Below, piece after piece: positions 23,509 through 45,427 of a stretch of DNA of 64,000 nt (positions within the stretch are counted from its first letter, which is position 1; each line of letters begins with the position of its first letter). Below the pieces are notes generated by a model that searched no databases, was not told where the DNA came from, and saw only the letters and a program-made list of their open reading frames with translations. Both the position numbers and the translations under genes were made by a program. Source of the stretch: an uncultured Dokdonia sp. (GTDB taxonomy: Bacteria; Bacteroidota; Bacteroidia; Flavobacteriales; Flavobacteriaceae); assembly GCF_937910895.1 (NCBI RefSeq), contig NZ_CALEMI010000052.1, forward strand, positions 1 to 64,000, read 5' to 3'.

Positions 23509-23549
23509 GGGTACAGTTAGTTATATATTAACCAAAAAACTCAAAAAAA

Positions 23550-23852
23550 ATGAAGTTTCTTGTAATCAGTAGACCAAATGGTCAGGATCACGGCTTAGCC
23601 AGTGGTTACGATCGCGTAGACAACATTAGCGATCACAACAAAGCCTTGAAAGGCTTATTAAAGGACAACACTGTAGAGAATGCGTATGCATTTATCTCAG
23701 GGGGTTCTGCAGTAGTTATCAATGCAGATTCTACTAAAGAATTGGCGATCAAAGTTCGTCACAATCCTTTATTTAAATCAAGTAACACAGAAATCATCCC
23801 AATTGCAGATGCAATTGATTTTCTTGATGGCGTGGTTGACCACCTATCTTAA
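23550..23852 (+). CDS. Small cluster protein, paralogue of the 86-aa protein at 34.6 kb
   Basis: A 100-aa protein with no signal or membrane segment. It shares MKF-VIS-P at the start, SGG then INA-S in the middle and a VR---L motif with the 86-aa protein at 34625-34885, so the two are paralogues. The size and alternating beta/alpha pattern are those of small dimeric alpha-beta-barrel proteins (YciI- or cyclase-like), a guess I cannot verify. It has the cluster's only recognisable -7 box, and a hairpin follows it before the giant synthase gene. Confidence 0.6.
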   Translation: MKFLVISRPNGQDHGLASGYDRVDNISDHNKALKGLLKDNTVENAYAFISGGSAVVINADSTKELAIKVRHNPLFKSSNTEIIPIADAIDFLDGVVDHLS

Positions 23853-23870
23853 AAGATTAAGTGTTTAAAA

Positions 23871-23905
23871 AAGACTGTGGCATTTTAATAAGATGTCGCA
23901 GTCTT
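23871..23905 (+). terminator. Imperfect hairpin between the small gene and the giant synthase
   Basis: Arms AAGACTGTGGCAT and ATGTCGCAGTCTT pair over 13 bp with two G-U pairs, followed by AATTTCTTGTTTATTTTC. This is a leaky terminator shape, so the first gene may be made in excess of the synthase. Confidence 0.55.
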
Positions 23906-23945
23906 AATTTCTTGTTTATTTTCTCTTTAACACTCCTTTGAAACG

Positions 23946-26900
23946 ATGAAAACCGTATTGAACAATTTTGAAATATTAGCCTATACTCCTTGTGGGTTTT
24001 CTAATAATCATCAAGTGACAGCACTTTCAAAATCTGGTGCGACTGGCATCTTTGATCTTGTCTATTGTCATGTATCGCATCGTGATTCAATTATCAATAC
24101 GCTAAAGCATACAAAAGCATTTTTGAAAAAAGAAGCACCTATTGGAATACGAGTTTCTAAAGAGACCGAAGGTTTAGTTCCAGAACTGCTAACCCTTTTA
24201 AAGGGTTTTAAAGTCACCATTATTTATAGTCAGTGGCATGAAACTACGATCAAAAAAGTAGTACAAACCATACGCAAAAACCCAACACAACGCTTATTGC
24301 TCGAAGTCGTTGATTTACAAATTTTAGAAAATACACTACACCTTATAGATGAGCTCGCAACTGATCAAAAAGGAATTATACTTTGCGGACAAGAAGCGAG
24401 TGGATATGTAGGAGATACGGCTAGCTTTTTAATGCTGCAGAAAGCATTACAATTTCCTAACCAACGTATATACTTAAGAGGAGGTATAGGAACACATACA
24501 GCTTCTGCATGCTATGCACTAGGATTGGCAGGAATTGTTCTTGACGACCAATTACTTCTTTTTAAAGAATCACCTTTGGATGCTCCTTCAAAAAGGATTT
24601 TAGAAAAAATTGAAGCAAGAGACACGCTTGTTTATGGAGGCTCTTTTACCACTACGTGTAGAGGTGTTTCGCATCCACTATTTCCAAAAAGTAAAACGCT
24701 TCAAAAAGAAGCCGATGCGCTAGAAGCAGTCTCAACTAGTAAAAATTCCAAAGAGTGGGATGCACTTCTTACTAAAAACATAGGTTGGGGAAATACCAAC
24801 ACTTCAATATGGCCTATCGGACAAACCATAGAATTAGCAAAAAAATATGCTGACCTCTATAAAACAACGGGAAGATTTTTACAAAGTTTTAAGAAAGAAA
24901 TCATTCGTATTTCTACACTTATTGCCACTCATAAAACAACACTGTCTGCAAATGCACCACTAGCCCAAACACACCAAACAACATATCCTATTGTTCAGGG
25001 ACCTATGACACGTGTAAGTGATACTCCTGAATTTGCAGAAGCTATCGCAACAGGTGGTGGACTTCCCTTTATTGCAGTAGCATTAAAGAAAAAAGAAGAT
25101 TTACACATACTATTAAAAAACACAAAAGTAACCTTAAAAGAAGCCGCTTGGGGAGTAGGTTTATTGGGATTTATAGACCCTACCTTATATAAAGATCAAT
25201 TGGCGTGTGTATTAGAGCACAAACCTTCTTTTGCCTTAATTGCAGGAGGACAACCTAATCAGGTAAAAGAACTTGAAGATCAAGGTATTTCAACCTACTT
25301 ACATGTACCCTCTGGAGGATTACTAAAGAACTTCATTAGTCAAGGGATTCGCAAATTTGTCTTTGAAGGAAGAGAATGTGGCGGTCATGTAGGTCCGATG
25401 CATTCATTCCCGCTTTGGGAAAGTGCTATAGAAATTCTTACAAATGAAATTCCAGAAGCAGAAAAATCAAAAGTACAGATCCTTTTTGCGGGTGGGATTC
25501 ACGATCAATACTCAGCCGCCATCATTACCGCTCTTACAGCCGAATTGCAAGACCAAGGAATGCAATCTGGAATATTAATGGGAACTGCATATCTCGCTAC
25601 TAAAGAAGCTGTCACTACAAAAGCCATCACCCCTTCTTTTCAAGAACTTGTTGTCAAACAGAATACCTCTGTGCTACTTAATAGTGCTGTAGGTCATTCC
25701 AATAGATGCGTGAAAAGTGATTTTACAGATGAGTTCAATGCAAAAAGAAAAGAATTACTACAAAAAAATACCGATCCAGATACGATTAGAGAACAACTAG
25801 ATGGTTTGCTTCTAGGAAGATTACGAATCGCCTCTAAAGGAATTCAACGAGATGAAAAGGGAACATTTGTTCAGGTATCAAAAAAGGAGCAAAAGGAATC
25901 TGGAATGTTTATGTCTGGTGATATCGCAAAGTTTATAAGCGGAGTACAAACCATTCAGGAATTACACGAGCAAATTGCGAGTGGCACGACACTCTTAAAA
26001 GATATAAAAACATCTAAAAAAGTAACTCCCCAAAAAGCAAATCCTGTAGATGTTGCGATTGTGGGTATGAGTGTTCATGTACCTGGCTCTAGAGAACTCA
26101 ATGACTTTTTTGAACAAATTATTGAGAAAAAATCAAGCATTACAGAAATCCCTCTGGATCGTTGGGACTGGAGACTATACTACAGCCCAGACAAGAATGA
26201 TCCTGATAAAATTTATTCTAAATGGGGAGGTTTTATAGACGAAATTTTATTTGATCCGCTTGAATATGGGATTCCTCCAAAGTCTATTCCTCATATAGGC
26301 GTAGCTCAATTATTAAGTTTAGAAGCTGTAAAAAGTAGTCTAACAGATGCTGGATATACACCAGATGAACTTGACAAAGACAATGTGTCTGTCATTTTTG
26401 CTGGTTCTGATGCTGCTGGTTTTTTTGGAAATGAATTAGTTCTCAGAAGTACGTCTCATCTATTTTCAGCGACCGAAAGAGAAGCTATTAACAAACGATT
26501 ACCTGTGTGGACAGAAGAAACATTTCCTGGCACAATTACAAATGTAGTCGCTGGAAGGGTTGCGAATCGTTTTGATTTTGGTGGAAGTAATTATACGGTT
26601 GATGCTGCGTGTGCATCTTCTATTGTTGCCTTAAATAATGGTGTAAGAGAGTTGACTAGTGGTCGAAGTAATGTGGCCATCGTTGGGGGAGTTGAAATGG
26701 GACAAACTCCACATGGATATATGAGTTTTAGTAAGACTCAGGCTTTGTCTGAAAAAGGACAAAGCATTCCTTTTGATAAAGATGCAGATGGGATTGTCAT
26801 CAGTGAAGGACTTGCTGTTGTTGTTCTGAAAAGACTTGAAGATGCAGAACGTGATGGAGATACGATATATTCAGTCATCAAAGGTGTCGCTGGTTCTAGT

Positions 26901-29900
26901 GATGGTAGAGCGATGGGAATGACTGCACCAAGACCTGTCGGACAAAAACGAGCGCTAGAACGTAGTTATCAAGAAGCTGGGTTCAGTACTTCGAGTATCG
27001 ATTATTATGAAGCGCATGGTACTGGAACTGCGGTAGGAGATCAAGCAGAACTTACCTCTATTTCTGAAGTTTTAACATCACTTAACACCCCTGCAAAATC
27101 AATCTCCATAGGGTCAATTAAAAACCTTATAGGACATACAAAAATAACAGCAGGTCTTGTTAGTACTGTAAAAACAGCATTGGCATTACACCATAAAATA
27201 TTGCCTCCCCAAGGAGGTGTCTCAACACCTAGAGCTATTATTAACACAGCAGATTCGCCATTAAGCATCCAACAAAAGGCGACATACTGGCCAAAACCAC
27301 AATATCATCCAAGAAGAGCAGGTGTTTCTGCCTTTGGATTTGGAGGTACAAATTATCATGCGGTATTAGAAGAATATGTTACTCCGCAAACAACGTATGG
27401 ATCGAAGAAACATCCCGCAGAACTCTTTGTATTTAAAGCAAAAAACAAAGAACAACTCACCCAACAATTAACCGATTGGGTAACCGTTCTTGAAACCCAT
27501 ACGGATATTGCCTTACGGAATCTTGCCTATACCGCTTATATAAATAGTACTTCTAAAAATGATACTTGTAAACTCACCCTTATCTGTACGGATGCTATCC
27601 ATTTGAAAGACAGTATACACAGTGCCTTAAAACATATAGAAAATCCTGATCAAAACGAGTTGGCAACAAACTGTAGGATTTCTTTTGACAAAAAAGAAGT
27701 TATTGGAAAAACAGCGATCCTTTTTCCTGGACAAGGAGCCCAATATCTAAACATGGGACAAGAGTTAGGACTTTATTTTGCACCGTTTGGAAACAATACA
27801 GATCTAATGCACCAAACCATAGGCAATCATTACGAAACACTTCCTTTTAGGGTCATAAATCCTCCTGCTAGTTTTGATCTAGATACCACAAAAAATCAAG
27901 AAGTAGCCATCAATAACACACATCTGGCACAACCCGCTATTGGATGGTCTTGTAAAAGCTATTTTGATGTATTTACAGATTTTGGTCTTCAATACGATTG
28001 TTTAGCAGGTCATAGTTACGGAGAATATACAGCACTACACGCGGCTGGCGTGATATCCCAAGAAGACTTCTTTGTCCTATCAGAAGTGAGAGGAAGACTT
28101 ATGGCAAAAAGTGATAATGGTGTAGGTGGCATGGCTGCTATTTTGGATTCACGCAAAAATGTAGAAACTTATCTTAAAGAACATACGTATGATGCTATTG
28201 TTTTAGCAAATCATAATCATACGCAACAAGTAGTTATTTCTGGTCAGAAGACAGAAGTTGAAAAAGTGGCTAGCCATTTTAAGGCATTAGGAAAATCTGT
28301 TTTTATGCTCCCAGTTTCAGGGGCGTTCCATTCATCATTGATGGAAGAAGCGCAGGCTCCTTTAGCGAAAGCGATCAAAAAAATCACATGTACAAGTCCT
28401 AGAAAGCCTGTTTATAATAATACCACGGCAAAACCATATCCAACAGCAGGCTCTAAAATTCAACATCAGTTACAAAACCATCTTCTTAAACCTGTAGAAT
28501 TTGTTGCTCAAATAGAACAAATGTATAGGGATGGAGTTCAAAATTTTATTGAATTAGGTCCCAAAAGTATACTGACCAAGTGTGTCAAGGATATCTTAAA
28601 AGACCAACCGCATCAAGCGTATGCTGTTGAAGAACATGGTAGGGATTTTAATAGCTTTTTACAATTTATTGTCACGCTATGGACAGAAGGCTATATTACA
28701 AATACAGCACCTTTATATGACACCAGAGATTGTGAGTTTATCGCTATTAACCGTTTAAAAAATACGCCTAAAAAAGAGCCAAAACCGACTAGTTGGATCA
28801 TTAACGGAACTCGATCTACGCCAATAAGCGCTAGTTTTTTAGAAAAACGTGAAACTCCTTTATTGACCTTAGAAAACATAGAAAATCAAAAAAGCAAACA
28901 GCAAATATCTGTAGTTCATAAAGCTGCAAACCCTGCCTCCACCCCACTTATGACACCTGAAAAACTACCTGTACGTACAAGTACTCCACAAACTACAAAT
29001 GGCATGATGGATGCGTATGAAGCCTATCAGAATACTATGACACAGTTCTTAAAAACACAAGAAACGGTCATGCAATCCTTCTTACAGGCTTCAAATACAG
29101 CTGGAATTCAAATACCTATCCCACAACCAACTATTGACACGAAAGAAGCGGTTATACCGACTCCAAAGGCAGTTCCTATTGCTGATACGCAACCAACTGT
29201 TGAGAAAAAAGAAACTATAGAAGCACCGTCACAAAAATCTAAAAATATACAAACCCGTCTCATAGAAATCATCTCTGAAAAAACAGGATATCCTGAAGAT
29301 ATGCTTTCTGTAGATTTAGATATAGAAGCAGAGTTAGGCATCGATTCTATAAAACGTGTTGAAATCTTTGACGAGATGCTTAAAACACTTTCAGCAACTG
29401 CTGTACAGAATATAAAGCAGCATAGTCAAGATATTATACAGACCAAATATCTCAAAGGGTGGATTGACTTATTTGAAAAATATAATGAAGAAGAAGTCAG
29501 TATATCGCTTGATACCCAGAAAACAGTAGTTACTTCTCAATCGACTATCTCAAGAGAAAGCATACAGCAAAAACTCATCAACATCATCTCCGATCATACG
29601 GGATATCCAATAGATATGATTGACCCTGATCAGGATATAGAAGCCGAGCTGAGTATCGATTCTATAAAACGTATCGAAATCTTTGACACCTTCTTAAAAA
29701 AATTAGAACATCCATATCAAAATAACATTCAAAAGTCGGCTGAAAAAATAGTCCGTCATAAGAAGATTTCTGATTGGACTTCTATGATTATAGAAACGCT
29801 TGATATTCCATCTATTAGTGAACCGACAGCAGATACGAATACCGTAAACGTGACTGTACAGATGGTACCGGAAGTGTTACAAAAAACACTTATCTCAATC

Positions 29901-31823
29901 ATTTCAGAACACACGGGATATCCTGACGAAATGATTGATCCTTCACTGGATATAGAAGCCGAGTTGAGTATTGACTCTATAAAGCGCATCGAAATCTTTG
30001 ATACTTTTATAAAGACGCTAGCTAACTCTCAGCAAGAAAAAATCAAAAAAGAAGCAGAAAAAATAGTACGCCACAAAAGAGTTTTAGATTGGATACAAAT
30101 GATTGTAGCTGTCTTAGATACTACTTCACAAACAGAGACACCTGTCGTTCTGGAAGTTTCTAAAGAAGTGGATGTTCGCTTTACGCGAAATAATATACTG
30201 GACGCGATACAAGAAGATGCGGATTCGCCTCGGTATATGATGAAGGCTATCGAACAAGAACTTCCAAATTTTAGAAGAAAATTAATTACTGGGCTTTATC
30301 TTATTGTTCCCGATCAATTACACATCGCCGATCGTGTCTCTAGCAGATTAGAAGAAGTAGGTGCTTGCTCTGACATTATCCCCATTGAAAAATGCAAGGA
30401 TTATGATACGTTAGAAGCACATATATCTGAGCTTAGAATGCTTTTTGGCCCTGTACAAGGCATCATTCACTTAGGGGCATTGATGAATCCTGAAAATATA
30501 AATCACAAAAACTGGAGATCAGAAGTAGACTCGATCTCTAAAACCTTATTCAATCTTATAAAAATTTGTGATGCAGATTTTAAAAATACACAAATATCTG
30601 GTGCTAAAACTATTATAGCAGTCACTAATTTTGGAGGTTTTTACGGTAGAGATTTAACTTCAAAACATACATCTCCTATTGGTGGAAGTCATCAAGGATT
30701 GCTAAAATCTTTAGAATATGAATGGGAACAAATGCTCCCAAAGACCATAGATTTTGAAACAACAGTGCATCCCAATCAGGCAGCACTAGCTATCTTTAAG
30801 GAAATACAGTCACCAAGTAGTCACTTTGAAGTAGGCTATAAAAACGGAAAACGATTTATTTTTAAAGCAGAGCACACCCCTTTACTTCCATTACAAACAC
30901 AGCAATTATTACTCCCTCAAGCAGACTGGGTAATTCTTATTACAGGCGGTTCAAGAGGTATTACTGCTGAGGTTGCTAAACAATATGCAGTGCCAGGAGT
31001 TCGATTTATTTTAGTTGGGAATGGCTCTTGGGGAGATTTTTCTAGTAAAGATGACACCACAACGATGGATGTCTCTCAACTTCGAAAACATCTCATTACG
31101 AAACACAAAACTTCAGGATCAAAAATCACACCCGCACAAATAGAAAAGGAGATCAAGCATATTTTAAGAGATCGAGAAATTACTAAAAATATAAGCTACC
31201 TGAGAAGCAAAGGCGTACTAGTAACGTATGAACAATGTGATGTTTCAAACACAGTAACCTTTGGGAAATTAATAGATACGATCTATCAGAAATACAATCG
31301 TATTGATATGGTGATTCATGGCGCAGGAATGATTGATGATAAATTCATTTCTGAAAAAACCAAGGACTCTTTTGACAAAGTCTTTAATACAAAAGTAAAT
31401 AGTAGTATGACTTTATATCAAAAACTACGTCTTGACAGCCTCAAATGTATTGCATTCTTTAGCTCAACGGCTGGACGTTTTGGAAACAAAGGTCAAACGG
31501 ATTACGCCGCTGCCAATGAAATCCTGAATAGACTCGCTTGGAAAATAAAAAGTGAGTACCAAGATATGATTGTAAAGTCATTTAACTGGGGCCCATGGGC
31601 GCACATTGGAATGGCGAGTGCGGTTGTAAATGAACAATTTATAAAACGAGGGATTATTCCGATAGAACCCGAACAAGGCGCAGCTTACTTCGTACAGGAA
31701 TTAAACAATACAAACCTATATGATGTTGAAGTCATTTTTGGACAAGGGACTTGGGATGATCGAATTACACATCCGATAGAAGCGTTGTTTAACGAAGAAT
31801 TTTCAACCATAACATTAAACTAA
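23946..31823 (+). CDS. Giant iterative synthase: NPD-NPD-KS-AT-ACP-ACP-ACP-KR
   Basis: A 2625-aa PfaA/PfaD-like type I synthase. In order: two tandem nitronate-monooxygenase/PfaD-type enoyl-reductase barrels (about 1-320 and 345-650); a ketosynthase (about 702-1140) with C889 in DAACASS, H1024 in EAHGTGT and H1064 in NLIGHT; an acyltransferase (about 1250-1560) with S1357 in GHSYGE; a low-complexity linker; three carrier domains with phosphopantetheine serines S1801, S1906 and S2011, spaced exactly 105 residues; and a ketoreductase (about 2100-2600) with GGSRG at 2334 and Y2520. The first barrel has SGY (Y154) where the second has GGH (H481), so it may be inactive. It likely builds a reduced acyl chain on its own carriers together with the DH of the 1359-aa protein. 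The product is unknown. Confidence 0.88.
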   Translation: MKTVLNNFEILAYTPCGFSNNHQVTALSKSGATGIFDLVYCHVSHRDSIINTLKHTKAFLKKEAPIGIRVSKETEGLVPELLTLLKGFKVTIIYSQWHETTIKKVVQTIRKNPTQRLLLEVVDLQILENTLHLIDELATDQKGIILCGQEASGYVGDTASFLMLQKALQFPNQRIYLRGGIGTHTASACYALGLAGIVLDDQLLLFKESPLDAPSKRILEKIEARDTLVYGGSFTTTCRGVSHPLFPKSKTLQKEADALEAVSTSKNSKEWDALLTKNIGWGNTNTSIWPIGQTIELAKKYADLYKTTGRFLQSFKKEIIRISTLIATHKTTLSANAPLAQTHQTTYPIVQGPMTRVSDTPEFAEAIATGGGLPFIAVALKKKEDLHILLKNTKVTLKEAAWGVGLLGFIDPTLYKDQLACVLEHKPSFALIAGGQPNQVKELEDQGISTYLHVPSGGLLKNFISQGIRKFVFEGRECGGHVGPMHSFPLWESAIEILTNEIPEAEKSKVQILFAGGIHDQYSAAIITALTAELQDQGMQSGILMGTAYLATKEAVTTKAITPSFQELVVKQNTSVLLNSAVGHSNRCVKSDFTDEFNAKRKELLQKNTDPDTIREQLDGLLLGRLRIASKGIQRDEKGTFVQVSKKEQKESGMFMSGDIAKFISGVQTIQELHEQIASGTTLLKDIKTSKKVTPQKANPVDVAIVGMSVHVPGSRELNDFFEQIIEKKSSITEIPLDRWDWRLYYSPDKNDPDKIYSKWGGFIDEILFDPLEYGIPPKSIPHIGVAQLLSLEAVKSSLTDAGYTPDELDKDNVSVIFAGSDAAGFFGNELVLRSTSHLFSATEREAINKRLPVWTEETFPGTITNVVAGRVANRFDFGGSNYTVDAACASSIVALNNGVRELTSGRSNVAIVGGVEMGQTPHGYMSFSKTQALSEKGQSIPFDKDADGIVISEGLAVVVLKRLEDAERDGDTIYSVIKGVAGSSDGRAMGMTAPRPVGQKRALERSYQEAGFSTSSIDYYEAHGTGTAVGDQAELTSISEVLTSLNTPAKSISIGSIKNLIGHTKITAGLVSTVKTALALHHKILPPQGGVSTPRAIINTADSPLSIQQKATYWPKPQYHPRRAGVSAFGFGGTNYHAVLEEYVTPQTTYGSKKHPAELFVFKAKNKEQLTQQLTDWVTVLETHTDIALRNLAYTAYINSTSKNDTCKLTLICTDAIHLKDSIHSALKHIENPDQNELATNCRISFDKKEVIGKTAILFPGQGAQYLNMGQELGLYFAPFGNNTDLMHQTIGNHYETLPFRVINPPASFDLDTTKNQEVAINNTHLAQPAIGWSCKSYFDVFTDFGLQYDCLAGHSYGEYTALHAAGVISQEDFFVLSEVRGRLMAKSDNGVGGMAAILDSRKNVETYLKEHTYDAIVLANHNHTQQVVISGQKTEVEKVASHFKALGKSVFMLPVSGAFHSSLMEEAQAPLAKAIKKITCTSPRKPVYNNTTAKPYPTAGSKIQHQLQNHLLKPVEFVAQIEQMYRDGVQNFIELGPKSILTKCVKDILKDQPHQAYAVEEHGRDFNSFLQFIVTLWTEGYITNTAPLYDTRDCEFIAINRLKNTPKKEPKPTSWIINGTRSTPISASFLEKRETPLLTLENIENQKSKQQISVVHKAANPASTPLMTPEKLPVRTSTPQTTNGMMDAYEAYQNTMTQFLKTQETVMQSFLQASNTAGIQIPIPQPTIDTKEAVIPTPKAVPIADTQPTVEKKETIEAPSQKSKNIQTRLIEIISEKTGYPEDMLSVDLDIEAELGIDSIKRVEIFDEMLKTLSATAVQNIKQHSQDIIQTKYLKGWIDLFEKYNEEEVSISLDTQKTVVTSQSTISRESIQQKLINIISDHTGYPIDMIDPDQDIEAELSIDSIKRIEIFDTFLKKLEHPYQNNIQKSAEKIVRHKKISDWTSMIIETLDIPSISEPTADTNTVNVTVQMVPEVLQKTLISIISEHTGYPDEMIDPSLDIEAELSIDSIKRIEIFDTFIKTLANSQQEKIKKEAEKIVRHKRVLDWIQMIVAVLDTTSQTETPVVLEVSKEVDVRFTRNNILDAIQEDADSPRYMMKAIEQELPNFRRKLITGLYLIVPDQLHIADRVSSRLEEVGACSDIIPIEKCKDYDTLEAHISELRMLFGPVQGIIHLGALMNPENINHKNWRSEVDSISKTLFNLIKICDADFKNTQISGAKTIIAVTNFGGFYGRDLTSKHTSPIGGSHQGLLKSLEYEWEQMLPKTIDFETTVHPNQAALAIFKEIQSPSSHFEVGYKNGKRFIFKAEHTPLLPLQTQQLLLPQADWVILITGGSRGITAEVAKQYAVPGVRFILVGNGSWGDFSSKDDTTTMDVSQLRKHLITKHKTSGSKITPAQIEKEIKHILRDREITKNISYLRSKGVLVTYEQCDVSNTVTFGKLIDTIYQKYNRIDMVIHGAGMIDDKFISEKTKDSFDKVFNTKVNSSMTLYQKLRLDSLKCIAFFSSTAGRFGNKGQTDYAAANEILNRLAWKIKSEYQDMIVKSFNWGPWAHIGMASAVVNEQFIKRGIIPIEPEQGAAYFVQELNNTNLYDVEVIFGQGTWDDRITHPIEALFNEEFSTITLN

Positions 31824-31828
31824 AAAAG

Positions 31829-32896: not shown

Positions 32897-32907
32897 AAAT
32901 CAATGGT

Positions 32908-34885: not shown

Positions 34886-34894
34886 ACATCTAAA

Positions 34895-36019: not shown

Positions 36020-36031
36020 ACTATAACAGTT

Positions 36032-36697: not shown

Positions 36698-36712
36698 TTT
36701 AGATACGATACA

Positions 36713-39700
36713 TTGGAATCAAGAATAGATCATAACGCTACGCAAGTTCAACTCCCTATACATGGCTTATCGTATATAGGCAGTAAAGGTCATGGGATAC
36801 AGGCTTTTTGGCAACATTCGCTTCAAGAGCAAACCCTAGTTCCTACTACAAAACAAACTATAGAAAACATATTTGATATTGCGATAAAAGACATTTATTT
36901 ACAATGTCCTTCTATTTTCAAAACTGCATACGATCTTACAATACTTCTTCAAAAAGACACTTCAAATACTGATGTACCATCTGTAAAGAATACTGTTGAA
37001 AATTCTTCTTTATATACAGCAGCATGCACCCTGAAAATTGTGCAAATTTCAGAAGAAGATCAGCTTGTACAGCGGCTTGAAAAATCACAAAGTAATACAC
37101 CAACTATTCTTGCTGTTTTACAAGAAAAAGAAGGACAAACAGAAGCTATATTCTTTGTTTTTAATGTGCCAGAAGTAGCGCCCAAAGCTATCATTACAGA
37201 AATTTCAGCAAATAGTTCTTTAGCTAATTGGTCTTTATCTTCACAAACTGCAAAATATATTGATGTTGTCCAACAAGATCAAATACATACCGAATTCTAT
37301 CAAGAAACCGTTGCTACTAATAGCTTACACGATTTTAAACATTTCCATTGGAGTGTTGCGACATGGTCGTTGTTTGGTTCTTGTGAGTCTTTATTAAGAG
37401 CTGTTCTGGCTACCTATTCTGAAATTATCCCTCCATCTGAAATCGCTTCAGATGATACTGTAAAGCATTATAAAGAAGCATTTCCTTGGTTTCATAGTCT
37501 CCCACATAGCAAACGTAAAAGCATCAGTTGTTTTGCCAATCAAAACACTTTTCACACCATTACGGTAGAGGAAGCTACAGAAAAAAATGACAGTTACTTA
37601 TTTCAACCAGACAAACCACAATTATTAGTATTCAGTGCTCCAAGTCAGCGAGCATTGCAAGGTGTTATACAAACGGCACTTGATCAACTTACAAATTTTG
37701 AAGAGGACGTGTATACGCTTTCGCGAAAGCTAAACAAACAACACCACCAATCATACCGACTGGCATGTAGTGTAGCTCCAGACACTATTGAAAAAAAACT
37801 ACAGGATGCTATTTCTTTACTTGAGGAAGCACCCATGTCTAGTTCTACATCTAAAAAAGGAATTACGTATGGTATTTGTGAGACTGCACCTAAAATAGCG
37901 TTTACCTATCCTGGACAAGGATCTCAATACACCGGAATGTTACAGGATTTGGCATTACATTTTCCTGAAATGCGTTCTAGTATTTCTGATCTTGATCAGG
38001 CATTATACGGTATCAATAAACTTCCTAATAGTACCATTGTATATCCACCTGAAGGCAACTTGACTACACAAGAGAAAACGATGCTTCAGCAAGAGTTGTA
38101 TAATATGGAAGGTGGGGCTACAAATATTGTTATTTCTAGTGTTGCCGTATTTGATTTACTTAAAAAATGTGGGGTCTTGCCAGAGGTACACTTAGGACAC
38201 AGCCATGGAGAAAATACCGCTTTAAATACTGCTGGAATTCTCTCTAGTGATCGAAATGCTTTTTTTGAGTTGGTTACAGAAATCAGCAGACGTGGTTCTG
38301 ACGGAATCGAAGAAGGACAGATTCCTGTGGGAAAATTTATATCTGTTGCCTTATTCCAACAGAATATAGATCACATTTTAGAAGCCTATAAGGATGACAT
38401 TTATATAGCGATGGATAACTGTCCACATCAATTTGTGGTCTTTGGAAAAAATGAAATTATAAAGGAATTTCAAAAAGCGATTAGTGATTTGGGTGCCATC
38501 TGTATTTCGCTACCTTTTGACAGAGCGTATCATACGCCATTTTTTGAAAGAGAAATGCGTTTTATACAACCTATTTACGATAGCATTACATTATATCGTC
38601 CTACGGCAAAAGTTTTTAGCTGTATAGATCTTGACTATTTTTCCGAAGATCCTATTCAGATAAAATCTAAACTTGGAAAACAGTGGACAAACTGTGTACG
38701 TTTTAGAGAAGCCATTGATATTTTATATAAAGATGGCATTACTCGTTTTATAGAAGTAGGTCCTGGAAGTACACTTACTGGTTTTACTAACGATACCTTA
38801 CACGGTAAAGATTTTAAAGCATTATCATGTGACGTCAAACAAAAAAGCAGTCTTAAACAGTTACAATTTATACTCGCAAAGCTTTTTGTAGATGGTGTTG
38901 CTATTCAAACGGATATTTTTCTTAAAAAAGAAGTTCCTGCTATTGAAGTGATTCATGAAAGAAAATCACATAAATTAAAATCTACTGAAACTTCCATTCA
39001 AGCAGAAACAACAACGCAAAAACAGATTGTAACGCGACATTTTGAATTGATGAATCAGTTTTTAAAACAACAAGAACAGATCTCTAAACAATTTTTTGAA
39101 GGGCAAATTTCAGTATCTCAAGAAACGAATACTACTCAGGAACTCCCGCCACTTTTAGATGGTATTGTTGAGGTCTCTACTACAGAAGTCGTTTTTGAAA
39201 AAACACTCCTTATTGATCAAGATATATTCCTAAAAGATCACACATTAGGACGATTTTCCGAAGGAGACAACACAGGATATCCATTACCCGTAATGCCTTT
39301 TGTAACCACGATGGAACTCATTGCCGAAGCCGCATCCTATTGGGCTACCGATAATTTGTTAGTGACCAAATTGAAAGACATCCGAGGTCATAAATGGATT
39401 GCATTAGACCAAGAATCATTGCGCCTATTAATTGTTGCCAAAAAAGAAAATAATCAAACCATAAAAATACAGGTCTTTACAGATCAAGTACATCCCACAC
39501 ATATTGTTGCAGAAGGTACTGCGATATTATCTGAGCATTATGCACTGCCTCCTGAATTACAAATCTCTGAGATGAAGTGTAAAGAAAACCCTATTTGGGA
39601 TGCAAAAGACTTTAATGAAACCTGTCTTTTTCACGGTCCTTCTTTTACGAGTATGGAAAGCTTAATCGACGTAGGCGATACAGGAATTGTTTTAGAACTT

Positions 39701-40792
39701 AAAAACCCTTCTCAACAACAATTTTTGGCACATAAAGAAACGACTCATTTTAAAACACCTGGTGCTATTCTAGATGCTTCTGGTCAAATGGTTGCCTACT
39801 GGCTGGTTGAACAAGGTGAAACTCATTTTGGATCTTTCCCATTTTATGTAGCCTCTTTTGAACTTTACGACCATCCACGATTAGCGGAAGGTCAAAAGAT
39901 TAAATGTGCTGCCAGCTTTGAAAAAAATAACGATATCCTTATAGGTGACTATCAGTTTTATGATCAAGACAAAGTGTTATTTAGTATTGAAGGACTCCAT
40001 TCTAAATACTATGATTTCCCCAAGGAGTTTTTAAATTGTCTGTATTGGGAAGGCAGAGGCTCTTATCTATCACAACCACTGTCTATTGACACTAACCTTC
40101 CTGTTCAACTAAGACGTATTGCTGATATACCCAATGGCTTTTTGGATCAAGGAGGTGCCATCTGGCTAAGAGCCCTAGCCCATATAATGCTTTCTAAAGA
40201 GGAGAAAGATACTTGGTATGCACTTTCTGACAAAGGAACTCGCAGGAAAGAATGGCTCCTAGGAAGAGTTGTTGAAAAAGAAGCTGTTCGTTCGTATGCA
40301 GATCAATATTATAGTTTAATCTTATCTCCCAGAGACATAGAAGTTATACCCTCAGCATTAGGAAAACCTATGATAATATGTGACGCATTAGCAAAAAAGA
40401 ATGCACTCCCTGATATTTCTATCTCACATTCTTTAACTACTGCCATTGCCGCAGTGGTGCCAAAAGGGATGACCGTAGGAATAGATCTTGAATTAATACA
40501 TAAAAAAGAAGAAAGTTATAACGTAGGACTTGTTTTTGACCAAGAAGAAAAAGAGCTATTACAGGGACGCAGTTTACTTCCTTTCTTCTGTGCAAAAGAA
40601 GCCGCTGCCAAAAGTTTAGGAATTCCGTTTTTAGGAAGTTATACGGCTTGGAAAATAATAACAATTACCAATGATATTGTGACCATACAACATGAACACA
40701 CACTTCTTGATGTCTATGTATACACAGACGCTACAGAAGTAACTGCTGTATGTGTGCATACACGTAAAGAGAAACAATTATTAAATCATTAA
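36713..40792 (+). CDS. Synthase: degenerate KS - AT - DH - phosphopantetheinyl transferase
   Basis: A 1359-aa protein with a TTG start. Residues about 1-370 look like a decayed ketosynthase (PWFHSLPHSKRKSIS where an intact KS has PWIH...RRAGVSSFG; no active-site Cys or His). The acyltransferase (about 385-700) has S497 in GHSHGE. A coiled linker leads to a hot-dog dehydratase (about 815-1110) with H843 in DHTLG and D1021 in LDASGQ. The C-terminus is a phosphopantetheinyl transferase (about 1210-1350) with D1258 in GIDLE and K1295-E1296 in CAKEAAAKS. It combines the equivalents of PfaB, the dehydratase of PfaC and PfaE, so the synthase can activate its own carrier domains. Confidence 0.85.
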   Translation: MESRIDHNATQVQLPIHGLSYIGSKGHGIQAFWQHSLQEQTLVPTTKQTIENIFDIAIKDIYLQCPSIFKTAYDLTILLQKDTSNTDVPSVKNTVENSSLYTAACTLKIVQISEEDQLVQRLEKSQSNTPTILAVLQEKEGQTEAIFFVFNVPEVAPKAIITEISANSSLANWSLSSQTAKYIDVVQQDQIHTEFYQETVATNSLHDFKHFHWSVATWSLFGSCESLLRAVLATYSEIIPPSEIASDDTVKHYKEAFPWFHSLPHSKRKSISCFANQNTFHTITVEEATEKNDSYLFQPDKPQLLVFSAPSQRALQGVIQTALDQLTNFEEDVYTLSRKLNKQHHQSYRLACSVAPDTIEKKLQDAISLLEEAPMSSSTSKKGITYGICETAPKIAFTYPGQGSQYTGMLQDLALHFPEMRSSISDLDQALYGINKLPNSTIVYPPEGNLTTQEKTMLQQELYNMEGGATNIVISSVAVFDLLKKCGVLPEVHLGHSHGENTALNTAGILSSDRNAFFELVTEISRRGSDGIEEGQIPVGKFISVALFQQNIDHILEAYKDDIYIAMDNCPHQFVVFGKNEIIKEFQKAISDLGAICISLPFDRAYHTPFFEREMRFIQPIYDSITLYRPTAKVFSCIDLDYFSEDPIQIKSKLGKQWTNCVRFREAIDILYKDGITRFIEVGPGSTLTGFTNDTLHGKDFKALSCDVKQKSSLKQLQFILAKLFVDGVAIQTDIFLKKEVPAIEVIHERKSHKLKSTETSIQAETTTQKQIVTRHFELMNQFLKQQEQISKQFFEGQISVSQETNTTQELPPLLDGIVEVSTTEVVFEKTLLIDQDIFLKDHTLGRFSEGDNTGYPLPVMPFVTTMELIAEAASYWATDNLLVTKLKDIRGHKWIALDQESLRLLIVAKKENNQTIKIQVFTDQVHPTHIVAEGTAILSEHYALPPELQISEMKCKENPIWDAKDFNETCLFHGPSFTSMESLIDVGDTGIVLELKNPSQQQFLAHKETTHFKTPGAILDASGQMVAYWLVEQGETHFGSFPFYVASFELYDHPRLAEGQKIKCAASFEKNNDILIGDYQFYDQDKVLFSIEGLHSKYYDFPKEFLNCLYWEGRGSYLSQPLSIDTNLPVQLRRIADIPNGFLDQGGAIWLRALAHIMLSKEEKDTWYALSDKGTRRKEWLLGRVVEKEAVRSYADQYYSLILSPRDIEVIPSALGKPMIICDALAKKNALPDISISHSLTTAIAAVVPKGMTVGIDLELIHKKEESYNVGLVFDQEEKELLQGRSLLPFFCAKEAAAKSLGIPFLGSYTAWKIITITNDIVTIQHEHTLLDVYVYTDATEVTAVCVHTRKEKQLLNH
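37716..37731. repeat. Palindrome copy (one mismatch) inside the AT-DH-PPTase gene
   Basis: CGCTTTCGCGAAAGCT, read in frame as LSRKL. Confidence 0.9.
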
Positions 40793-40803
40793 AATTCAAA
40801 ATT

Positions 40804-41076
40804 ATGAAACTCACAAAAGAAGAAACAGAAGGTAAAATCATTCACATCCTAGAAAACTTTGTGGAAGATTGGGATTTAGATGAAGAGATCAATAGAGATA
40901 CAAAACTTAATGAAGATTTATGTTTTACTTCTGTAAACATGATTCATTTTATGGCAAACATTGATATGGAATTTCAGAAAAAATTCCCATTTGAGCAACT
41001 CATTATGAAGGAAGGTTCTTTCAAAAACGAACTTGAAGTAGATCAACTAGTGGATTATATATACCAAAATCAATAA
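40804..41076 (+). CDS. Free-standing acyl carrier protein
   Basis: A 90-aa acidic, four-helix protein with a carrier-protein layout. S43 in DLCFTSVNMIHF is the likely phosphopantetheine site, a variant of the DSL motif. It is separate from the three in-line carriers of the synthase, so it may hold a different substrate, for example the chain handed to release or tailoring enzymes. Gaps of 11 bp on each side. Confidence 0.8.
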   Translation: MKLTKEETEGKIIHILENFVEDWDLDEEINRDTKLNEDLCFTSVNMIHFMANIDMEFQKKFPFEQLIMKEGSFKNELEVDQLVDYIYQNQ

Positions 41077-41087
41077 GCTATCCATTT

Positions 41088-43022
41088 ATGAAACATCTCG
41101 TTTTCTATAGTCATTATCATTATGGACTTGGGCATGTCTCACGTACCACAGCTATCATCAATGCTGTTCTTGAGCAAGATCCAAATGTAACCTGTACTTT
41201 ACTTACAGACACTTTGCATAAAGTGGACTTCTATATCCATCCAGATATAGAAATTGTGGAGTTACCTAAAGTCCCTAGAAATTCAAAAGACTTTACGTTA
41301 ATCAGAACAAAGATTTTAGAACGTACAGAAAAGATTATAGCCTATTTTAATACACATACAGTAGATGTTTTTTTATCGGATCATATTCCCTTTGGAGTGT
41401 ATGGAGAATTAACAGATGTTTTTAAAAACATACTTCGTAAAAAACAACATACACAATGTGTTCTGGGAGTTCCATATCCACATACCAAAGGACTTATCCC
41501 TCGGAATCCATATTTGAGAGACTTATTACAAATATATCAACACGTATTATTGTATTCTGACCAAGATTGGTACCCTTTTAACATTGATTACTCTGGCGGT
41601 CATATCATAACAAAATACACAGGTATTGTGACCAGACCGACTACATTTCAGGTAAAAAGTGATGAAGAACGTGCATCATCGTCTCAAAAATGCATTGCTG
41701 TATCTGTAGGAAGTGGTGTGGTAGGACTCGAATTATTTAAAAAAATATTGGATGCCACGAGAGAATTCAGAGCACAAAACATCTTATTAAAATGGGTGAT
41801 GGGACCGCTTGGAGATCAAAAAAAGTATGCAGAATTAAGTGAAGGAGAGCAGAATGTCTCATTACTGACCCATGCTAGTTTACAAGAACTCGTAGCAGAT
41901 GCAGATGTTGTTATTGCAAGAGTAGGTTATAACTCAGCATTTACATTAGCAAAAACTAGACTCCCTATCATATTCATTCCGTATTTAAGCCAAGATACAG
42001 AGCAAGAAATAAGAGCGTATAAGTTATCTGAATCTATAAATAACATTTGGAGATTAAAAGAGACAAAACCTCATTTTAAAACAAAGCTTAAAGACCTTAT
42101 TACAAAAGGACTCCAGACGCCATTAAGAACCGAAGAACTCTCATTTGACACAAACGGAGCAGTAGCTTCTGCTACTTACCTTTTACACCTCGCTTCTAAA
42201 AAGATAAAAGATCTCGACACCTTAAAATCAAAAAAAATACTCACGATCCATGCAGATGATCTAGGGCTTACAGATGGTGTGACCAAAGGAATTACTAACT
42301 CCATTACACAAGGAATTGTGACAGATACCGCCGCTATGGTTTGTATTGAAGGAGCAAAAGAGCACATCCTTAAAGTACAGCGTACATTAAAAAACAAAAT
42401 AGGACTCCACTTACAACTTACTGGAGGCACTCCATGTTTAGATAGCGCACAAATATCTACCCTTGTCACAGAAGATGGCACATTCCCATCTAAGAGATTT
42501 CAACTCTCTACAAAACTAGATATCTCTCAAGTAGAAAAAGAATGGGAAGCGCAATTACAACGTCTACAAAGTTGGGGAATCCAGCCTGCTTATGTAGATA
42601 GTCATCACAATGTACACTTAAAGCCAAAACTACTGCCTTTGATAGCAAAATTTGCTAAAAAACATCAATTATACGTGAGATCTGGCGACTCGGTATTAAT
42701 ACATCACTATTTTAAAAGTCAAGGGGTTATATCACCTGCCTTTACGGTAAGAAAATTTTATGGTGATCAATTGAGCAAAGCCTCTTTACTTGAATTGATT
42801 GACAACGGATTTAAACAAATAAATAACGAAGGTATTCTCGAAATTGCCTGTCATCCAGGATATTCAGATACAGAATTAGAACAGATATCTGATCATAACA
42901 TACATCGAGAAACCGAAATAAAGATCCTCACAGATAAAGAGCTTCCAGAACTCTTAGCAGAGAGAGGAATCTCGTTGATGTCAACACACGAGATTACGCA
43001 ACAATTAGCAACACCTGTTTAA
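41088..43022 (+). CDS. Glycosyltransferase - YdjC/ChbG deacetylase fusion
   Basis: A 644-aa two-domain protein. Residues about 1-370 form a GT-B, MurG/MGT-like glycosyltransferase (HYHYGLGHVSRTTAI at the start; ADVVIARVGYNSAFTLA in the donor-binding half). Residues about 383-640 form a YdjC/ChbG carbohydrate deacetylase with H388-A-D390-D391, VDSHHNVHL and EIACHPGY as metal and active-site motifs. The fusion suggests that an N-acetylated sugar is attached and then N-deacetylated by one polypeptide, as BshA and BshB do separately in bacillithiol synthesis. Confidence 0.82.
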   Translation: MKHLVFYSHYHYGLGHVSRTTAIINAVLEQDPNVTCTLLTDTLHKVDFYIHPDIEIVELPKVPRNSKDFTLIRTKILERTEKIIAYFNTHTVDVFLSDHIPFGVYGELTDVFKNILRKKQHTQCVLGVPYPHTKGLIPRNPYLRDLLQIYQHVLLYSDQDWYPFNIDYSGGHIITKYTGIVTRPTTFQVKSDEERASSSQKCIAVSVGSGVVGLELFKKILDATREFRAQNILLKWVMGPLGDQKKYAELSEGEQNVSLLTHASLQELVADADVVIARVGYNSAFTLAKTRLPIIFIPYLSQDTEQEIRAYKLSESINNIWRLKETKPHFKTKLKDLITKGLQTPLRTEELSFDTNGAVASATYLLHLASKKIKDLDTLKSKKILTIHADDLGLTDGVTKGITNSITQGIVTDTAAMVCIEGAKEHILKVQRTLKNKIGLHLQLTGGTPCLDSAQISTLVTEDGTFPSKRFQLSTKLDISQVEKEWEAQLQRLQSWGIQPAYVDSHHNVHLKPKLLPLIAKFAKKHQLYVRSGDSVLIHHYFKSQGVISPAFTVRKFYGDQLSKASLLELIDNGFKQINNEGILEIACHPGYSDTELEQISDHNIHRETEIKILTDKELPELLAERGISLMSTHEITQQLATPV

Positions 43023-43041
43023 AAGGGAGTGATGCTATATA

Positions 43042-43057
43042 CGCTTTCGCGAAAGCG
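43042..43057. repeat. Palindrome CGCTTTCGCGAAAGCG, exact copy between cluster genes
   Basis: Exact copy in the 97-bp gap, extended on both sides (20 bp with flanking TA/TA) and by outer imperfect arms ATGCTATA/TATATAAA. It can fold as a strong hairpin in the transcript between the two cluster segments. Confidence 0.9.
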
Positions 43058-43119
43058 TACACAGCATATATAAAAGCTGTATGGTCAATAGAAAATAAGA
43101 ATTAAAAAAATAGAGTATC

Positions 43120-44211
43120 ATGGAAATAATCAATCACGCAATCGTAGGTTGCGGAAGAATAGCACCAAACCACGTAGATGGTTTTACTCGCATAGACAAT
43201 GTAAAAATAACTTATGCGGTAGATAAAGATATTGAAGTCGCCAAAGCATTTGCAGAACGTTTTGATATAGAAAATTACACGTCAGATTATCAAAAAGTAC
43301 TGAGCGATCCTTCTGTGCATAGTATCTCTCTAAATGTTCCTCATGATCTTCATGGAGTTATGGCACAGCAAGCCGCTGAAGCAAATAAACACGTTTTGTT
43401 AGAAAAACCCTTTGTCATTGACCCAAAAGAAGGAGAAAAGCTCGTACAAACGGCCAGAGAGCGTGGCGTTACTGTGATGCCTATCGTACAGCATCATTAT
43501 GACTTGCTACTAATCAAGATCAAAGAAATGATAGATTCAGGAGCAATGGGAACGATTAGTATGCTGCGAGGACATCTAGAATGTAATCGTCCGCCATCCT
43601 ACTATTCTGAAAGCGAATGGCGCGGGAGCTTACAACGAGAAGGAGGATCTGTGCTGATTAATCAGGCATATCATATTTTAGACTTAATGGTATGGCTATC
43701 TGGTCCTGTACAAAATGTAACAGCACATCAACACACCACAAACCGTGAAGTGATGGAAACCGAAGATGTATTTACAGCGTCACTGAAATTTAAAAATCGT
43801 GCCCTAGCATCACTAAGCGTATGTGGCGCAGGAGGTTCTTCTTGGAGAAATATGATCGAAATCATAAGTGATCAGGGCGTTATTGGTTTTGACATCTCTC
43901 ACCCCAATCAATTACTTCGTTTTGAGTTGAAATCAAAAAGAGAAATGAAACTCTGGAGAAAACAGTTTGCAGAAATTATAGAAGCGGTACAACCATCATC
44001 TGCAGGGACAGATTATTATGGGATCTCACACAGACCGCAAACAAAAGCATTTATAGACGCCATACGAGGCACTATAGACGTTAAAGAAGATCAACAACAC
44101 GCTTTACATATTGTACATACCATAGATGCTTTATACACGTCTTCCAGACAACAAAAAAATAGGGACGTACAAGAAATAACTATTAATTCTGAGAGCTATG
44201 CAACTACATAA
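43120..44211 (+). CDS. Gfo/Idh/MocA-family sugar dehydrogenase
   Basis: A 363-aa NAD(P)-dependent oxidoreductase. The Rossmann motif is AIVGCGRIAPNH near residues 7-18 and the catalytic Lys is in LLEKPF near residue 95. A conserved His is near 180 (AYHILDLMVWL). Family members oxidise a sugar hydroxyl. Its stop overlaps the start of the DegT aminotransferase, a pair that often converts a nucleotide sugar to an amino sugar (C3 oxidation then transamination, as in NtdC/NtdA or WlbA/WlbE systems). Confidence 0.85.
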   Translation: MEIINHAIVGCGRIAPNHVDGFTRIDNVKITYAVDKDIEVAKAFAERFDIENYTSDYQKVLSDPSVHSISLNVPHDLHGVMAQQAAEANKHVLLEKPFVIDPKEGEKLVQTARERGVTVMPIVQHHYDLLLIKIKEMIDSGAMGTISMLRGHLECNRPPSYYSESEWRGSLQREGGSVLINQAYHILDLMVWLSGPVQNVTAHQHTTNREVMETEDVFTASLKFKNRALASLSVCGAGGSSWRNMIEIISDQGVIGFDISHPNQLLRFELKSKREMKLWRKQFAEIIEAVQPSSAGTDYYGISHRPQTKAFIDAIRGTIDVKEDQQHALHIVHTIDALYTSSRQQKNRDVQEITINSESYATT

Positions 44212-45364
44212 TAACTGGCAAGGCCACTACACAGAAATCCAAGAAGAAGACAAACTATCTGTGCTAAAAACGATAGACGAGAACCAATTATCTATTGTCT
44301 CTGGCGGGCTTATGGCACGTTTTGAAAAACGATTTGCCAAGTTTGCAGCAACTAACTATGGTGTTGCTTTTAACAGCGGAACTTCCTCTATACTAGCAGC
44401 ACTATGGGCAATAGGCGTCCGTCAAGGAGATGAGGTGATTGTTTGTTCTTATGGTTTTGAAGGCACGATTGCTCCTATGCTTACCTTAGGAGCTACTATT
44501 GTTCCTTGTGATATGAACGCGGACACCTTTACCATAGATCCAGAGAGTATCAAAAATGCAATTACAGAAAAGACCAAAGCTATTTTTGTGCATAATCCTT
44601 GGGGAGTTCCTGCCGACTATGATGCCATTAAGGAAGTAACTGCACTTCCTCTGATCGCCGATGCTGCGCATGCACACGGAGCAACTTATAAGGGCGAACC
44701 TCTTGCAAAAGCTGTTGCTATTGCCTGTTATTCATTAGGGTTAAACAAACTTATTACAGGAGGAGAATTAGGATGCGCCGTCACAGATAGCCTTGAGTTA
44801 CGAGATGCTATGATATTGTATGGACACATCAATCGCGCTCCTATGGATCTTAAAACAAATGAATGGACTGGAAATGCGGTAGGATTAAAACTACGTCCGC
44901 ATCCTTTTGCGATGGCATTAGCAATGCCACAAATAAAAAGATATGATGAGAAGAAAATACTGCTTGTTGAGACCTGTCAAGCGATAGAAACTATTTTTGA
45001 AAAACACGGGTTTATAGCACAAGCCGTTCCAGAAAATTCAACACGAGTATATTGGCGTATTGTTTTAAAAATAGAAGAGACGGTATTTAAAGGTGTCACT
45101 ACAGATAGTATAGAATCATTCTTAAAAGAACACGGGATTCCAGTAGAAAAAAATCACTATTGGCCATTACTAGCCGATCGTAAAATATTTGATTGGGAAG
45201 ATAATCAATCCCTTGTCAGAAAAACTAATACCCCAACAGCAACAGCAGTTGTCCCTCGTACCATTACTCTTCCTGCTCCTGTAGTACTCCCTTCTGAGGA
45301 ATTACAACGTATAGAAAATATCCTTTCTAAAATACATACCCTTACAGAAAATATCGCTGTATAA
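44198..45364 (+). CDS. DegT/DnrJ/EryC1-family sugar aminotransferase
   Basis: A 388-aa PLP aminotransferase of the sugar type. The PLP lysine is K184 in YSLGLNKLITGGELG, and DAAHAHG near 153-159 contacts the cofactor; FNSGTSSILAAL near the N-terminus is the phosphate cup. It overlaps the Gfo/Idh gene by 14 bp, so the two enzymes most likely act in sequence. It is the last gene of the cluster, followed at once by a strong terminator. Confidence 0.87.
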   Translation: MQLHNNWQGHYTEIQEEDKLSVLKTIDENQLSIVSGGLMARFEKRFAKFAATNYGVAFNSGTSSILAALWAIGVRQGDEVIVCSYGFEGTIAPMLTLGATIVPCDMNADTFTIDPESIKNAITEKTKAIFVHNPWGVPADYDAIKEVTALPLIADAAHAHGATYKGEPLAKAVAIACYSLGLNKLITGGELGCAVTDSLELRDAMILYGHINRAPMDLKTNEWTGNAVGLKLRPHPFAMALAMPQIKRYDEKKILLVETCQAIETIFEKHGFIAQAVPENSTRVYWRIVLKIEETVFKGVTTDSIESFLKEHGIPVEKNHYWPLLADRKIFDWEDNQSLVRKTNTPTATAVVPRTITLPAPVVLPSEELQRIENILSKIHTLTENIAV

Positions 45365-45367
45365 ATT

Positions 45368-45402
45368 GAAATTGCATCTAGTCAACAATTAGATGCAATT
45401 TC
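45368..45402 (+). terminator. Rho-independent terminator of the biosynthetic cluster
   Basis: A 13-bp perfect stem (GAAATTGCATCTA / TAGATGCAATTTC) with a 9-nt loop, followed by TAAATTTCTTTTCTTTTTTT. It starts four bases after the aminotransferase stop and closes the cluster. Confidence 0.9.
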
Positions 45403-45427
45403 TAAATTTCTTTTCTTTTTTTGATAT

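Follow-up and report, generated by a model that had tools for sequence, protein, structure and literature searches.

Two groups stand among the described systems that come closest to the locus reported here. The first is the biosynthesis of AFC-BC11 and bolagladin in Burkholderia, for which the available text of two papers describes a chain taken from primary fatty acid synthase (FAS) or myristate and joined to a peptide, with a citrate unit in its tail. BolR formed citrate from acetyl-CoA and oxaloacetate in vitro, deletion of bolR left a product short of C3H4O2, and deletion of bolS removed the O-methyl group (PMC7756342). Deletions of afcS and afcF gave an identical truncated tail and deletion of afcT cost 14 Da (PMC12186527); the homology of AfcS/AfcT to BolR/BolS is taken from a statement in that paper. 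The accessible parts of both papers do not decide between citrate as a primer and a late coupling of citrate to the omega end. The second group consists of Pfa-like synthases built from two fused proteins, pfaDA and pfaBC-phosphopantetheinyl transferase (PPTase), which the available text of PMC13291983 describes for Flavobacteriales clade VI and credits to Renibacterium as well. The same text calls the bolagladin logic 'fundamentally different' from Pfa-like pathways, and a cluster uniting both is therefore notable. Such a cluster was found in a stretch of 64,000 nucleotides, referred to as the window, from contig NZ_CALEMI010000052.1 of an uncultured Dokdonia sp. (GCF_937910895.1, a 4.81-Mb draft genome in 169 contigs). 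An operon in the window combines a two-protein Pfa-like synthase with a citrate synthase homologue (CS) and a methyltransferase (MT) related to AfcS and AfcT, and we estimate a probability of about 0.5 that it builds a citrate-tailed, bolaamphiphilic glycolipid.

The operon is compact, with 13 co-directional open reading frames (ORFs) between 23550 and 45364 (Table 1). Ten of its 12 junctions overlap or span 15 bp or less, and the remaining two measure 93 and 97 bp. An initial annotation, made from the sequence without database searches, had described fourteen co-directional genes with mostly small gaps or overlaps. Direction and spacing stood, but the count did not, as a single ORF encodes both the deacetylase and the second glycosyltransferase; its YdjC half was probably the fourteenth gene. 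The strong terminator of the same annotation was retained in part. The hairpin behind the last gene has a perfect 15-bp stem, the longest among 13 terminator-like sites in the scan (the other 12 have stems of at most 9 pairs), but the T-run behind the stem is modest and 13 sites are only slightly above the 9.7 (standard deviation 3.1) seen in shuffles. The Bacteroidetes -7 motif TAnnTTTG at 23501 was given no weight, with 35 such matches on the + strand of the window. Pfam assigned an NMO-type enoyl reductase (ER), ketosynthase (KS), acyltransferase (AT), acyl carrier protein (ACP), ketoreductase (KR), class-3 lipase, TauD, GT_PLOD, citrate synthase, S-adenosylmethionine (SAM) methyltransferase, second AT, GT28-YdjC, Gfo/Idh and DegT, in agreement with the lipase, TauD oxygenase, two glycosyltransferases, deacetylase, citrate synthase, methyltransferase and amino-sugar pair named before. 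YC1, YC2 and the free ACP (40804) had no Pfam matches. Intact motifs were observed for KS, both ATs, three ACP repeats, KR, dehydratase (DH), PPTase, lipase, TauD, MT, YdjC, Gfo and DegT. The operon is more than a chance arrangement, because other genomes have the same gene set in much the same order and the block forms an insertion with definable borders.

Table 1. Features of the operon and of the inserted block, in window coordinates (AF2, AlphaFold2)
Feature	Position	Strand	Evidence
Insertion, about 22.1 kb, holding the whole cluster	about 23310..45424	.	blastn against three congeners without the block at this site
YC1, partner of synthase 1; small protein with a muconolactone-isomerase/YciI fold	23550..23852	+	AF2 model, Foldseek, neighbourhood
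SYN1, ER(NMO/FabK-like)-KS-AT-ACPx3-KR iterative synthase	23946..31823	+	Pfam/NCBIfam, motifs, KS trees
Class-3 lipase-like hydrolase	31829..32896	+	PF01764, GHSLG nucleophile elbow, Bizionia homologue
TauD-type Fe(II)/2-oxoglutarate oxygenase	32908..33885	+	PF02668, HGE...H motif
GT1, GT-A glycosyltransferase (PLOD-GT-like), DSRD motif	33882..34628	+	PF25342
YC2, paralogue of YC1	34625..34885	+	27% identity to YC1
CS, AfcS-type citrate synthase homologue	34895..36019	+	PF00285, tree, predicted fold
MT, AfcT-type SAM methyltransferase	36032..36697	+	Pfam, plasmid-collection search, adjacency to CS
SYN2, (degenerate KS remnant)-AT-DH-PPTase	36713..40792	+	Pfam/NCBIfam, motifs, comparison with relatives
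Free acyl carrier protein (ACP)	40804..41076	+	Motif, homologues in 6/6 clusters
GT28-type glycosyltransferase fused to YdjC-type carbohydrate deacetylase	41088..43022	+	PF04101 and PF04794
Gfo/Idh/MocA sugar dehydrogenase	43120..44211	+	Pfam, solved relatives, Bizionia homologue
DegT/DnrJ sugar aminotransferase, GLNK lysine motif	44198..45364	+	Pfam, motif, solved relatives, Bizionia homologue
Inverted repeat, 15-bp stem, likely terminator	45368..45402	+	Hairpin scan

The link to Burkholderia came from a tblastn search of a plasmid collection. Among the best 60 of 117 records for CS, B. cenocepacia (150 bits), B. arboris (148) and Rhodobacteraceae bacterium SC52 (143) stood apart from the other 57, which reached at most 81. 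The same three records scored 160-164 bits with MT, the next among the best 20 of 158 records scoring 66. CS and MT adjoin in both Burkholderia records and are followed by a TauD gene. Upstream of the pair in B. cenocepacia, Pfam found genes for an AMP-ligase, AurF, beta-ketoacyl-ACP synthase III, a pyridoxal phosphate-dependent decarboxylase and an AMP-binding protein, which agrees with the afc gene set as far as it is described in the available text of PMC12186527. These records are unannotated, and we identify the three proteins as putative AfcS, AfcT and AfcU. In the CS tree, the proteins of five related clusters (window, SC52, Fluviibacterium, Roseicyclus and Bizionia, in all of which CS and MT are adjacent) and the two Burkholderia proteins were separated from nine other citrate and methylcitrate synthases with support of 100/100. 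Within their group, the Burkholderia rows branch among the cluster proteins, and a grouping of the five clusters was not rejected in the approximately unbiased test (p-AU 0.269); this tree has long end branches (gltA of the source genome, Bizionia) and odd composition, and BolR is not in it.

GPxH, GFGH and PNxD, the catalytic His-His-Asp of citrate synthase, are kept in the window CS. All seven proteins have GFGxxxP[ST] in place of HExNAST, H[IVL]G in place of HGG and (K/R)PxFG in place of RPR, and the window CS alone of the seven retains a His in the altered segment. The AF2 model from a four-row alignment has a citrate synthase fold (predicted local distance difference test, pLDDT, 74; predicted template modelling score, pTM, 0.81). 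A housekeeping citrate synthase is encoded separately in the source genome (G000:C167). CS and MT are, on these comparisons, a matched pair specifically related to the putative AfcS/AfcT pair of Burkholderia. The initial annotation had listed them as separate extras; both are present, but as such a pair and not as miscellaneous tailoring. Its reading of the product as an oxidised lipid with an amino sugar would agree with ours except for the citrate-derived part, which was missed. Compared with AFC-BC11 and bolagladin, the window shares the CS clade, a related adjacent MT and a TauD gene beside them. It differs in that the chain would come from an iterative type I synthase of its own and be glycosylated, where those systems draw the chain from primary metabolism and join it to a peptide.

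An alternative is offered by the fungal alkylcitrate clusters (ctr, squalestatin, maleidrides). By analogy with these, CS would condense the finished acyl thioester via its alpha carbon with oxaloacetate and so release it at the carboxyl end, TauD would oxidise the citrate part, and GT1 and MT would decorate it. According to the available text of PMC13178491 and PMC8851701, the fungal clusters combine FAS or a highly reducing polyketide synthase (PKS) with a citrate synthase homologue acting as alkylcitrate synthase and with 2-oxoglutarate oxygenases, some of them TauD-like; the maleidride clusters add a hydrolase, and this set resembles the synthase, CS, TauD and lipase of the window. The likeness is one of gene set, and the fungal gene lists, as far as available, are without glycosyltransferases. 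In the nearest characterised bacterial CS-MT pair, however, the citrate unit forms the omega terminus of the fatty acid, as far as the accessible descriptions go. Because the Burkholderia pair was found, release at the carboxyl end was ranked second and is considered rather unlikely.

Related clusters were sought with two short peptide patterns from a GT1 alignment in a genome collection of 84,980 species, a scan that would miss clusters without GT1 or with other letters at the pattern sites. It matched 44 stretches, and in four of these a GT1 relative is encoded. The four come from an uncultured Bizionia, from Opitutia UBA4506 (a Verrucomicrobiota metagenome-assembled genome), from Roseicyclus marinus and from Fluviibacterium aquatile. 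The plasmid collection added SC52, which is 98.7-99.7% identical to Fluviibacterium in four proteins. Together with the window this makes six clusters, the others being Bizionia, three Rhodobacterales and the one Verrucomicrobiota genome. SYN1, SYN2, ACP and GT1 are present in all six. TauD, CS and MT are present in five, the exception being UBA4506, where they were not seen on the contigs read of a broken assembly. YC1 and GT28 occur in three clusters each, and lipase, YC2, YdjC, Gfo and DegT in two each. The order SYN1-TauD-GT1-CS-MT-SYN2-ACP of SC52 and Roseicyclus is the window order minus the extras; Fluviibacterium has the same order, but a contig end breaks its SYN1. Bizionia has all 13 gene families; its SYN1 is divided ahead of the KR, it carries an additional MT, and SYN2, ACP and the sugar genes run on the opposite strand. 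Among 295 genomes of the family of Roseicyclus the SC52 GT1 was found in one, Roseicyclus itself, so the cluster is rare. On one UBA4506 contig, genes for a group 1 glycosyl transferase and a polysaccharide deacetylase come after YC1-SYN1, and on another the order is SYN2-ACP-GT28-GT1. Another large PKS region with multiple KS domains is present in the Bizionia genome (G593:C3:158635-195401).

UBA4506 is relevant to a second alternative, an oxidised amino-sugar lipid without a citrate unit, for which CS would act as a lyase or on another oxo-acid and MT would methylate the sugar or the chain. The UBA4506 contigs read contain synthase, ACP, GT1 and GT28 without CS or MT, and the NCBIfam matches of the window CS include citryl-CoA lyases beside methylcitrate and citrate synthases, all under the cut-off. 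On the other hand, CS and MT stand together in every cluster that has them, and both are related to the adjacent Burkholderia pair. A product without citrate is therefore judged unlikely.

The Bizionia homologues are 39.7% identical for the lipase, 52-54% for Gfo and 53% for DegT. TauD has 42-47% identical homologues in four other clusters, and GT1 had no solved relative at E 0.01. GT28 and YdjC, fused in the window, are separate genes in Bizionia; the nearest solved structures to the fusion are UPF0249/YdjC and a chitooligosaccharide deacetylase. The nearest solved relatives are 3q2k/3q2i for Gfo and 7b0m for DegT, with WbpE and ArnB among the DegT matches, and neither protein reaches any NCBIfam cut-off. 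We take 3q2k to be WlbA, a nucleotide-sugar enzyme. These structural matches would also suit a role in which YdjC, Gfo and DegT act on lipid A or on some other glycan, to which the acyl part would then be attached. Such a role is improbable, as the sugar genes are co-linear with the synthase, are clustered again in Bizionia and lie inside one insertion.

The AF2 model of YC1 (pLDDT 75) has a muconolactone-isomerase-like fold, with 3znu_A as the best Foldseek match (E 1.6e-5). YC1 adjoins SYN1 in the window, Bizionia and UBA4506, and our guess is for this reason a role in chain processing. A function as a citrate-lactone enzyme, suggested by the fold, was unsupported because UBA4506, in which no CS was found, has YC1 as well. 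YC2 has a 27% identical homologue at the equivalent relative place in Bizionia.

The domain content agrees with the earlier description of a Pfa-like iterative synthase with a free ACP, for which full beta-carbon reduction is possible. SYN1 (23946) has three ACP repeats by motif, which Pfam gives as one stretch. In SYN2 (36713), DH scored 23.0 against a Pfam cut-off of 27 and PPTase 24.8 against 25; both motifs are intact, and the SC52 and UBA4506 homologues exceed the PS-DH and ACPS cut-offs. The KS cysteine motif is absent from SYN2 in five of five cluster members and present in six of six relatives, a comparison that left out Fluviibacterium and the Roseicyclus-family synthases G631 and G738. 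The KS phylogeny suggested by the initial annotation was carried out with 20 rows (midpoint-rooted) and 28 rows (rooted on four distant synthases), leaving out Fluviibacterium and with a long-branch warning. Five SYN1 KS domains from three phyla grouped in a single clade (100/99), and their sister (100/98) was a Roseicyclus-family synthase, that of G761. Farther out, with weaker support, came the two-protein synthases found in Streptomyces sp. NBC_00984 and in three genomes from the window's order, together with other Roseicyclus-family synthases, Beijerinckia and Methylosinus, and then PfaA. Of the secondary-lipid Types A-T of PMC3098273, representatives of PfaA-, N/M- and P-like types (by our own labels, Types H and O, the latter of Dinoroseobacter, not included) fell outside the clade, as did the G631, G708 and G738 synthases. 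The stretches read around the G631, G708, G738 and G761 synthases yielded no CS, TauD, MT or GT1, that of G738 being one 10.5-kb contig. By this phylogeny SYN1/SYN2 represent a distinct clade of two-protein Pfa-like synthases.

The pfaDA/pfaBC-PPTase type shares the two-protein architecture with the window, as far as the available descriptions go: the ER is fused ahead of KS-AT-ACP-KR, and PPTase ends the second protein. The window synthase differs in its own KS clade, in a SYN2 without KS and in having no nonribosomal peptide synthetase or PKS modules. A CS-MT-TauD-GT1 set was not found in the stretches read of two-protein-synthase relatives, the clade VI strains being compared by description only. 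The claim that the cluster is undescribed thus holds for the whole cluster, which has no known product, but not for the synthase architecture, already present in the available text of PMC13291983. No description of this gene combination was found in the literature searched, most subscription journals lying outside its scope. A SYN1-like protein matching 97% of SYN1 is also encoded by loci of the Type P phenolic-lipid synthase (Beijerinckia indica pBIND02, Methylosinus). Type P-like loci have a separate DH-PPTase protein as in the window, but without AT; type III PKS-type genes adjoin them whereas none is present in the window, and their KS domains form a separate clade. The Type P product is known for Azotobacter and not for Beijerinckia, according to the available text of PMC3098273.

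A synthase for polyunsaturated fatty acids was rejected as very improbable: SYN1 does exceed the TIGR02813 PfaA cut-off (1097.2 against 1010.1), but its KS lies outside the PfaA clade, SYN2 has no intact KS or chain length factor, and SYN2 of the window, SC52 and UBA4506 carries a PKS-type DH with none of the FabA stretches of which the PfaC-like control protein of a congener has two. With a dehydratase not of FabA type and the KS lost from the second protein, the chain is more readily read as saturated or hydroxylated.

Some further synthases were noticed on the way. Sister-type clusters are present in three genomes of the window's order (G470, G450, G416) and in Streptomyces sp. NBC_00984. 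They contain SYN1, a KS-AT-DH-PPTase protein, ACP, an alpha/beta hydrolase and a glycosyltransferase (small genes assigned by eye except in the annotated Streptomyces), and end in two condensation-type-acyltransferase-like proteins in the former and in a methyltransferase in Streptomyces. In the window's family, G021:C1:3393000-3432800 carries three neighbouring KS-bearing synthases, two of them of about 2,600 amino acids with nearly equal match scores, as if duplicated.

The cluster is set into the genome as a block between MeaB (21200) and a metallo-beta-lactamase (MBL)-rhodanese gene (47269). Both flank genes lie within about 3 kb of each other in three of 17 congeners searched (G200, G213, G211), and in blastn against the window the gapped alignment of all three stops at 23307-23309 and restarts at 45424-45425, with 66 bp, 50 bp and 92 bp, respectively, between the flanks at the empty site. 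The right border was placed by short matches (53-104 columns at 80-85% identity, with E between 4e-9 and 5e-20), and another variable stretch follows until 45663-45674 in the three congeners. The remaining 14 were uninformative on the site: MeaB and MBL are distant from each other or stand on separate contigs, or no MeaB was found (G209). Repeats at the two ends of the insertion, direct or inverted, reached no more than 11 bp, as expected by chance, and no transposase was found among the block ORFs by Pfam. Gain of the block at this site is a simpler reading than loss elsewhere.

Full-length SYN2 was confined to the source genome among 18 genomes of the genus, 199 of the family and 392 in a sample of the phylum; three other genomes of the phylum sample have a sister-type protein and not SYN2 itself. 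SYN2 matches in 196 of the 199 family genomes were discarded, being by our reading of query position (about 395-693) and frame length mostly AT-domain matches in FabD-sized proteins. None of the cluster's other genes was found at pfaABC-like loci (G202, G205, G076) or on short PfaA-like contigs (G003, G051), and the sole additional match in 13 stretches compared was one Gfo match of 24%.

Just past the insertion, 45694-50298 encodes a Crp-like regulator, a TauE exporter, MBL-rhodanese, rhodanese and TPMT-like proteins and a second Crp-like regulator. This sulfur-type gene set was aligned to about 49.1 kb in the three congeners, where the compared stretch ended. Elsewhere in the window, a likely kynurenine branch lies at 9442-12832, where a single ORF separates a kynureninase gene from one of the FAD-binding monooxygenase type. 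A TPR-CHAT domain protein (53990-56755) adjoins a subtilase (56876-58138), and 58226-60664 encodes a trypsin-like protease that carries a Por-secretion (type IX) tail. This tail and the occurrence of the most complete related cluster in a Bizionia agree with a flavobacterial source.

For the operon we propose that SYN1 and SYN2, with their own PPTase and the free ACP, would make a long, largely reduced acyl chain. The AfcS-type CS would provide a citrate-derived starter or terminal unit, most simply as a citryl starter loaded by the second AT, and the AfcT-type MT would O-methylate the citrate hydroxyl. TauD may hydroxylate the chain or the acid, and the lipase-like protein may release the chain or transfer the acyl group. 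GT1 and GT28 would add sugars, the YdjC domain would remove an N-acetyl group, and the Gfo/DegT pair would supply an amino sugar, probably a 3-amino sugar. The product could be a long acyl chain that bears an amino sugar and has one end of methoxy-citrate type, and the block may well have been acquired horizontally; we hold this explanation as a whole at even odds.

Several observations weigh against this reading. CS is only 29% identical to the Burkholderia proteins, part of the canonical oxaloacetate-binding segment is altered throughout the CS family, and Bizionia CS has Glu in place of the catalytic Asp. An AfcF/BolE-like FAD oxidoreductase was not found by Pfam among the 13 proteins, a search limited to the operon, and this counts because loss of AfcF equals loss of AfcS in AFC-BC11. 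On the UBA4506 contigs read, synthase, ACP and GT1 occur without CS, MT and TauD, so this synthase clade may be able to do without a citrate unit. At 23% identity, the TauD next to the Burkholderia MT is a distant match and not the nearest relative of the window TauD, and since several other TauDs score higher, TauD as a third specific link to AFC was unsupported. No transporter or receptor gene was found in the cluster by Pfam, whereas the bolagladin locus has a TonB receptor according to the available text. The GC content of the block (37.1%) is near that of the window (35.8%), so composition betrays no foreign donor. The missing AfcF/BolE and transporter genes, the low CS identity, a possibly citrate-free UBA4506 and the weak TauD link are the reasons for keeping the estimate at about 0.5.

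More tentatively, the operon may represent a type I iterative synthase with a dedicated citryl (O-methylcitryl) starter that makes a bolaamphiphilic amino-glycolipid. This would be a new lipid class exchanged horizontally between Bacteroidota and Pseudomonadota, and Verrucomicrobiota would have a form of the same synthase clade that may lack citrate. A related CS-MT pair and a complete self-activating type I synthase in one operon would allow the question of citrate attachment to be tested with few proteins. The cluster points to an undescribed glycolipid in environmental bacteria, possibly surface-active or metal-binding, and shows such modules moving between phyla.

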